A DNA stretch of 51,178 nucleotides. Origin: Promethearchaeota archaeon. GTDB lineage: Archaea; Asgardarchaeota; Lokiarchaeia; Sigyniarchaeales; SOKP01. Below, one piece after another: positions 29,407 to 30,281 of this stretch. Within the stretch, counting starts at the first letter, position 1. The number at the start of each line of letters is the position of its first letter. A model generated the notes under the pieces. The model had not been told where the DNA came from. It saw only the letters and a program-made list of their open reading frames with translations, and made no database searches. Where the stretch lies: the NCBI GenBank assembly GCA_019894715.1, contig JAGXOA010000204.1, positions 1 to 51,178 on the forward strand, written 5' to 3'. The translations under genes and the position numbers were made by a program.

Positions 29407-29706
29407 TCAATAAAGATGATGATTGTGCGCATATTCCTTAATAATATGAATTTGATGCTCAAGATCTCCTCGTTTATATTGTTTATGAGAAGACACTCTT
29501 CCATAAATAGCGCATTTTGTAGATATATTGATCGAAGAAGCCTTATATGCATCTTTACCTTCAATAATTCTCTTTATTTCTCTTAAGGAAAAACGACGAT
29601 GACCTCCAGGAGTTCTGATACAATGAATCTTATTTACTTTATGCCATCTTCTTACTGTTTTCACACATACACCTAAAATAAAAGCAGCAGTACCAATAGA
29701 ATACAT
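29407..29706 (-). pseudogene. tnpA: Truncated IS607-family serine recombinase TnpA
   Basis: From the ATG at 29706 there are 99 residues: a MerR-like winged helix (YSIGTAAFILGVCVKTVRRW, TPGGHRRFS) followed by the beginning of the serine-recombinase catalytic domain, YGRVSSHKQ with the nucleophile Ser region and DLEHQIHIIKEYA. IS607 TnpA is normally about 200 residues; here the frame ends at HHLY, and the remaining catalytic core and C-terminal helix are missing. No tnpB follows. The 5' flank is the 99-bp left-end repeat. The element is therefore dead in cis. Confidence 0.85.
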
Positions 29707-29805
29707 ATAATCTCTATTAGAATTCCCTCTTATACTCAACGAAAAATAAACATTACCACTCAAAGTCCAGATTTGTCCAGAATTTTAGAAACTATGGACA
29801 ACCCT
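29707..29805 (-). mobile_element. IS607-type left end (copy B of 99-bp repeat) upstream of tnpA
   Basis: Starts at the base before the tnpA ATG and ends with AGGGTTGTCC on the minus strand. It is 97/99 identical to 21012-21110. The TGTCCA / TGGACA inverted pair and the two GTCCAG direct copies are conserved in both, as expected for recombinase binding sites. The outer end is placed where the two copies stop matching (29805/21110). Confidence 0.75.
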
Positions 29806-29983: not shown

Positions 29984-30121
29984 TGCCGGTGGTGGGATTT
30001 GAGCCCACGACATCCAGAATACATCCAGTCTGACCCAATCTTTCAGTAGGATTATGAGTCTGGCGCCTATTAAACATTTGAGTATACGAAATGTTTTATA
30101 ACCAAGCTAAGCCACACCGGC
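29984..30121 (-). tRNA. tRNA-Met (CAT), with two introns
   Basis: Mature 75-nt elongator-like tRNA: acceptor GCCGGTG/CACCGGC, D stem GCTT/AGGC, anticodon stem CCAGA/TCTGG with loop CTCATAA (anticodon CAT at 30054-30056), T stem GTGGG/CCCAC with loop CTCAAAT, discriminator A, no encoded CCA. Two insertions break it: 33 nt at 30019-30051 at the canonical anticodon-loop site (37/38 or 38/39) and 30 nt at 30069-30098 in the D loop around position 21/22. The D-loop insert carries the perfect inverted repeat AAACATTT / AAATGTTT. Exon pairing is perfect apart from one G-T in the D stem, so both inserts are taken as introns for the archaeal splicing endonuclease. Confidence 0.88.
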
Positions 30122-30133
30122 AAATTTATTAAA

Positions 30134-30281
30134 AGCCTTTGGAGGGTTATGATCCCCCGACCTTTGCCTTTTCGTTATTTTGGATAATTTCCAATTTATA
30201 CCAAGGCAACGCTCTTTACCGACTAAACTATAACTTGCTTTCAACTAAGTTACGGCTCGTTACCGACTGAGCTACAAAGGC
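30134..30281 (-). tRNA. tRNA-Thr (GGT), with two introns
   Basis: Mature 75-nt tRNA: acceptor GCCTTTG/CAAAGGC, D stem GCTC/GAGC, anticodon stem TTGCC/GGCAA with loop TTGGTAA (anticodon GGT at 30200-30202), T stem GGGGG/CCCTC, discriminator T, no CCA. A 29-nt insert sits in the anticodon loop after position 37 (about 30170-30198). A 44-nt insert sits in the D arm and is flanked by a 9-nt direct repeat of the D-loop sequence AGTCGGTAA (30260-30268 and 30216-30224), so its exact ends can slide; it contains the pair TAACTT / AAGTTA. The T loop reads ATCATAA, with A54 and T58 unusual. It lies 12 bp upstream of tRNA-Met, probably co-transcribed. Confidence 0.85.

Follow-up and report, generated by a model that had tools for sequence, protein, structure and literature searches.

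The single tRNA-Thr(GGT) gene found in the genome of an uncultured Asgard archaeon of the class Lokiarchaeia carries in its D-loop an insert made largely of a second, decayed copy of its own D-arm. The duplication, its absence from relatives and the intact remainder of the tRNA can be read from the sequences themselves. Our best explanation, to which we assign a probability of roughly 0.72, is that the insert is an archaeal tRNA intron of the bulge-helix-bulge (BHB) type at position 20/21 and a recent product of tandem duplication of part of tRNA-Thr(GGT) itself. The formation of the BHB, its cutting and the normal D-arm product are what we infer for the transcript. The host genome comprises 3.36 Mb in 288 contigs and is 98% complete; all coordinates below refer to the window, the whole stretch of 51 178 nucleotides that was analysed.

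The duplicated D-arm of tRNA-Thr(GGT)

The tRNA-Thr(GGT) precursor gene occupies positions 30134..30281 on the minus strand and is read from 30281 to 30134, exactly where the first-pass annotation had placed it. It has the acceptor strands GCCTTTG/CAAAGGC, the anticodon GGT and the discriminator T. A search of the whole genome found its anticodon-arm motif, RTTGCCTTGGTA, only once, so that this gene is very likely the single reader of ACC/ACU codons. Outside the introns, the acceptor, anticodon and T stems all pair in the spliced alignment, and acceptor pair 5-68 is T-A here versus C-G in G001, a genome of the same genus, which is a compensatory change. Neither this gene nor the adjacent tRNA-Met was detected by ARAGORN and Rfam at default thresholds, and a pattern search, BLAST and spliced alignment were therefore used to locate tRNA genes. 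A second intron of 29 nt had been claimed at the canonical anticodon-loop site; spliced alignment and BHB scan confirm it at 37/38 (30170..30198, minus strand), with a 29-nt counterpart in G001.

The 9-nt direct repeat that had been reported to bound the D-arm insert, AGTCGGTAA, is indeed present twice on the minus strand (copy 1 at 30260..30268, copy 2 at 30216..30224) with a spacing of 44 nt. However, a length of 9 nt understates it, as the two copies belong to a larger in-register repeat, 39 nt long, in which 28 of 39 nucleotides (72%) are identical at the period of 44, and both ends of the insert are homologous to the flanking exon in this one register. The repeat contains two D-arms on the minus strand: copy 1, TAGCTCAGTCGGTAACGAGC (30255..30274), has an exonic 5' strand and an intronic 3' strand, and copy 2, TAGTTTAGTCGGTAAAGAGC (30211..30230), has a decayed, intronic 5' strand (GTTT) and an exonic 3' strand. 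They are identical at 17 of 20 positions and are separated by 24 nt. The number of such doubled D-arms expected by chance is zero, and when the intron was dinucleotide-shuffled 20 000 times, an equally good in-register match did not appear once. To the right of the 9-mer, in the register that it sets, the flank matches at 13 of 22 positions (binomial p 0.001). Beyond the D-arm the right flank, in the same 9-mer register, still matches at 9 of 17 (p 0.017), so that the duplication may reach into the anticodon arm and take in its 5' half. The left flank by itself matches at 6 of 13 positions, which is not significant.

No donor tRNA turned up when the rest of the genome was searched. The D-arm 20-mer pattern has two sites in 3.36 Mb within two mismatches, both in tRNA-Thr(GGT), which excludes a donor among the other tRNAs at that stringency. 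When the 3' part of the intron was compared with 30 other tRNAs of the genome, its closest match remained exon 1 of its own gene. The copies of the repeat diverge by 28%, which would not be expected of an assembly artefact. A 22-nt triple repeat of the D-arm was also examined, in which the middle copy matches its neighbours at 12 and 11 of 22 positions (p 0.004 and 0.014, both post hoc); the D-arm may possibly be present three times, but we make no such claim.

The insert had been attributed either to a tandem partial duplication or to a target-duplicating insertion, and the two can now be separated. A 9-bp target-site duplication predicts a foreign insert with homology limited to the 9-mer, but the homology continues rightward in register, and the intron core has no match within three mismatches elsewhere in the genome or among 12 relatives, so that an insertion of this kind is not supported. 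There is good support for partial tandem duplication, because the homology extends far past the 9-mer in a single register and has no other genomic source; we infer this origin from one gene in one assembly. The duplicated unit would have been about 44 nt long and would have covered the D-arm and probably the anticodon arm as well, in its 5' half.

Predicted splicing of the insert

The length of 44 nt previously given for the insert is that of the repeat period, whereas the best BHB reading from spliced alignment, BHB scan and folding removes 46 nt (30216..30261, minus strand). An alternative 44-nt reading (30217-30260, minus strand) is nearly as good, and its energy is equal with TCGG/TCGG pairing. 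The BHB scan puts the best site at 20/21 with a 3 nt-4 bp-3 nt geometry (p=0.017 versus shuffled introns). The predicted structure is [GTCG]GT/a...[CGGT]aa/A, with slashes at the splice sites, an exon helix GCTC/GAGC and A14 bulged, and it matches in geometry the 20/21 intron of a relative from another genus, G034. The same scan recovered good bulge-helix-bulge ends for most introns of the family. Removal of the 46 and 29 nt gives a gap-free alignment, and the resulting D-arm is identical to that of the intronless G017 and G023.

In the proposed precursor, the exon helix would consist of the D-stem 5' strand from copy 1 paired with the 3' strand from copy 2, and the inner strands, GAGC of copy 1 and GTTT of copy 2, would form the intron helix together with GTAACTT/AAGTTAT. 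The two copies of the D-loop would lie opposite one another, held together by base pairs in their partly self-complementary core (GTCG/CGGT or TCGG/TCGG), with about 3 nt left single-stranded at either end. Cleavage by EndA would fall within these bulges and RtcB would join the exons, giving the normal D-arm GCTC-AGTCGGTA-GAGC. The genome has one RtcB gene and two EndA-type (PF01974) genes, of which the first shows the catalytic Tyr/His/Lys pattern and the other, beta-like, has no His, as judged by eye. EndAs of the two-gene (alpha-beta)2 type have broad specificity (PMC6379350), and the gene pair found here is what would be expected of that type.

Three observations limit this picture. Folding of the precursor, proposed earlier as a check, yields the BHB at 20/21, but the minimum energies, -41.5 for this fold and -41.2 for one in which the D-arms stay separate, do not differ beyond error, and roughly one in three shuffled introns gets as low as the BHB fold; the folding energy is therefore not decisive. 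The repeat period of 44 nt and the best splice length of 46 nt differ by 2 nt, so that excision would not simply reverse the duplication. Finally, both copies read GTAAM versus GTA in relatives, which requires a prior or parallel 2-nt change.

Age of the insert and rival explanations

About 50 tRNA-Thr(GGT) orthologues from Lokiarchaeia relatives were compared in spliced alignment. At the orthologous syntenic locus of G001 the 37/38 intron is shared and the D-arm insert is absent, and all four tRNA-Thr(GGT) genes from the neighbouring genus g3 (G003, G017, G023 and G028) likewise lack the insert. In a screen of 83 genomes of the class, the repeated D-arm was recognized in one, in this gene only. 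Parsimony thus points to a recent gain in this lineage, and the comparison with close relatives that the first-pass annotation had suggested comes out in its favor. That annotation also regarded unrelated D-arm introns at the same place in relatives, without the direct repeat, as evidence to the contrary. Such introns do exist in other genera, at 20/21 in G034 and at the neighbouring site 22/23 in G002, G016, G004 and G030, so that this objection holds in part, and D-arm introns in this group are therefore not generally born by duplication. However, G001 and the four g3 genomes have no D-arm intron of any kind, so that a recent, separate birth of the tRNA-Thr insert stands.

In this family, to judge from the alignment, introns have turned over rapidly in tRNA-Thr(GGT), which is a hotspot for them. 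Among the orthologues (L032-L112) there are at least eight intron sites (8/9, 14/15, 20/21, 22/23, 37/38, 43/44, 44/45 and the T-loop) and up to three introns per gene (in G004 and G072), and nearly all introns outside 37/38 are 29-31 nt long. Repeats of 10-11 nt at the D-arm introns of G032 and G085 and at the T-arm intron of G023 (p about 0.01 each) are not significant after correction for multiple testing. Pooled over 30 other introns, in-register similarity is no better than chance (p 0.32). Duplication as the general origin of introns in this clade, or as their usual route, is accordingly unsupported, because the pooled signal is null and D-arm introns at 20/21 or 22/23 in other genera lack repeats.

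Noncanonical BHB introns themselves are well known. In Thermoproteales, the gain of tRNA introns has been put down to similar introns moving from one tRNA to another by transposition (Fujishima et al. 2010, as cited in PMC4090602). The present insert resembles the noncanonical introns of Thermoproteales and Thaumarchaeota in being short, outside 37/38, one of several in its gene, equipped with BHB-like ends and accompanied by a two-gene EndA; unlike them, it has a body that is a recognizable copy of the host tRNA's own D-arm. If it were nevertheless an ordinary noncanonical intron that had spread by transposition, this likeness would be coincidental or imposed by BHB pairing. The repeat-less D-arm introns at 20/21 or 22/23 in other genera, the heavy turnover at many sites of this tRNA and the null result for the 30 pooled introns all agree with such an origin, but BHB pairing explains at most about four matching bases against the 17 of 20 and 28 of 39 observed, 46 nt is long against the typical 29-31 nt, and no second copy of the core was found within the limits given above. 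We consider a transposed intron unlikely.

Sugahara et al. (2012, PMC3293823) attributed an intron gain at 24/25 of Caldiarchaeum tRNA-Thr(GGU), associated with a duplicated 5' tRNA fragment, to a mobile element. The parallel is close, as it involves the same tRNA species, an intron gain in the D-arm region and a duplicated tRNA fragment, and it raises the possibility that our insert is the scar of an element that integrated into tRNA-Thr and left such a fragment behind. Beside the Thr-Met tRNA pair there is, moreover, an apparently truncated ORF of 118 aa (29407-29763, minus strand) with a MerR-type HTH followed by a stretch resembling the start (TnpA N-terminal part) of an IS607-type serine recombinase, and G001 has a different ORF at that place. 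However, IS607-type elements are not known to target tRNAs or to duplicate their target. In Caldiarchaeum the fragment lies 1.8 kb off, across the putative mobile element, whereas here an internal duplication of about 44 nt itself forms the intron, and the 24 nt between the D-arm copies contain no element, integrase gene or att-like remnant. An integration scar is thus very unlikely. Retention of the insert, in a pseudogene or in an expanded tRNA with two D-arms, we also rate as highly improbable: folding with the D-arms as separate hairpins costs almost no stability relative to the BHB fold, but this is the only GGT gene of a 98% complete genome and is needed for ACC/ACU codons, every other stem is intact, the acceptor change is compensatory, and genes for EndA and RtcB are present. 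A pseudogene, which had been named as a possible refutation, is unlikely on the same grounds.

Duplication as a possible route to introns, and the adjacent tRNA-Met

A 2014 review called for snapshots of intron insertion to reveal the mechanism by which archaeal tRNA introns arise (PMC4033280). An intron confined to a single species, with a still readable copy of the host gene, is such a snapshot. Among the open-licence papers searched, we found none that dealt with Lokiarchaeia tRNA introns or with BHB introns derived from an internal duplication. Rogers and Bendich (2025, PMC11782384) claimed direct repeats at all intron borders or near splice sites and read them as insertion scars; their repeat criteria are loose and cover only five archaeal introns, whereas about 70 introns were tested here, of which one is clearly beyond chance, and that one is a long duplication and not a target-site repeat. 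In hairpin-duplication models of tRNA origin, a duplicated tRNA hairpin gives rise to a new tRNA architecture (PMC4033280). Those models concern a primordial molecule, whereas the present event would be recent, in a living lineage, with an intron as its product.

The tRNA-Thr insert points to a cheap, element-free mechanism of intron gain that is open to test. A duplicated hairpin would, just as it stands, offer an outer helix, an inner one identical to it in sequence and two opposed loops; where the loop contains a partly self-complementary tetramer, the duplicated hairpin would automatically be a BHB. When tandem duplications of 20-50 nt were simulated in tRNA-Thr(GGT) sequences, 61-83% gave a BHB scoring like those of real introns (>=30, on a score of our own that is uncalibrated on enzyme data), compared with 0.5-1% for random inserts. 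The preferred cuts in the simulation (14, 19-22, 37 and 58/59) are close to the real intron sites of this tRNA. Shuffled sequences, however, yielded BHBs after duplication at the same mean frequency, and several other tRNAs of the genome rarely did so. An effect special to tRNA stems is thereby rejected, and the creation of a BHB is a property of tandem duplication as such. We put forward only tentatively, as a rather doubtful generalization, that a spliceable intron can arise in one step when a tRNA arm is duplicated in tandem, with this gene as an example caught in the act and tRNAs with such loops as intron hotspots. If true, the duplication route would explain repeated intron gain at some tRNAs and sites.

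The 3' neighbour of tRNA-Thr(GGT) is tRNA-Met(CAT) (29984..30121, minus strand), and this Thr-Met order recurs in many relatives. The two-intron layout that tRNA-Met had been said to share with tRNA-Thr is real, consisting of a 30-nt D-arm intron (30067-30096, minus strand) and a 33-nt anticodon-arm intron (30019-30051, minus strand), but its history differs. Several relatives have the D-arm intron of tRNA-Met with identical splice geometry and no flanking repeat, and it is therefore a separate event from the tRNA-Thr insert. Across the family the 33-nt intron has kept its sequence (CTGAAA, then GGGTCAGACTGGATGTAT) far better than the other introns have, and a repeat of CTGGATGT spans its 3' splice site; this intron may have a function. 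In tRNA-Met of G073 (L098) the anticodon-arm intron has apparently moved upstream to around position 32, with the ends CCAGAC/CTGGAC, whereas in relatives it lies near 38/39; the intron may have slid.

In tRNA-Thr(GGT) the T-loop reads ATCATAA in this gene and has the form ATCRTRN in several genera (also at L032, L033, L035-L038, L041 and L043), so that A54/T58 replaces the near-universal T54/A58. Among the other tRNAs listed for this genome, those with an intact T-loop show the usual form, and a swapped 54-58 pair in a sole gene seems unusual. Genera g4 and g8 each contain both T-loop forms of tRNA-Thr(GGT).
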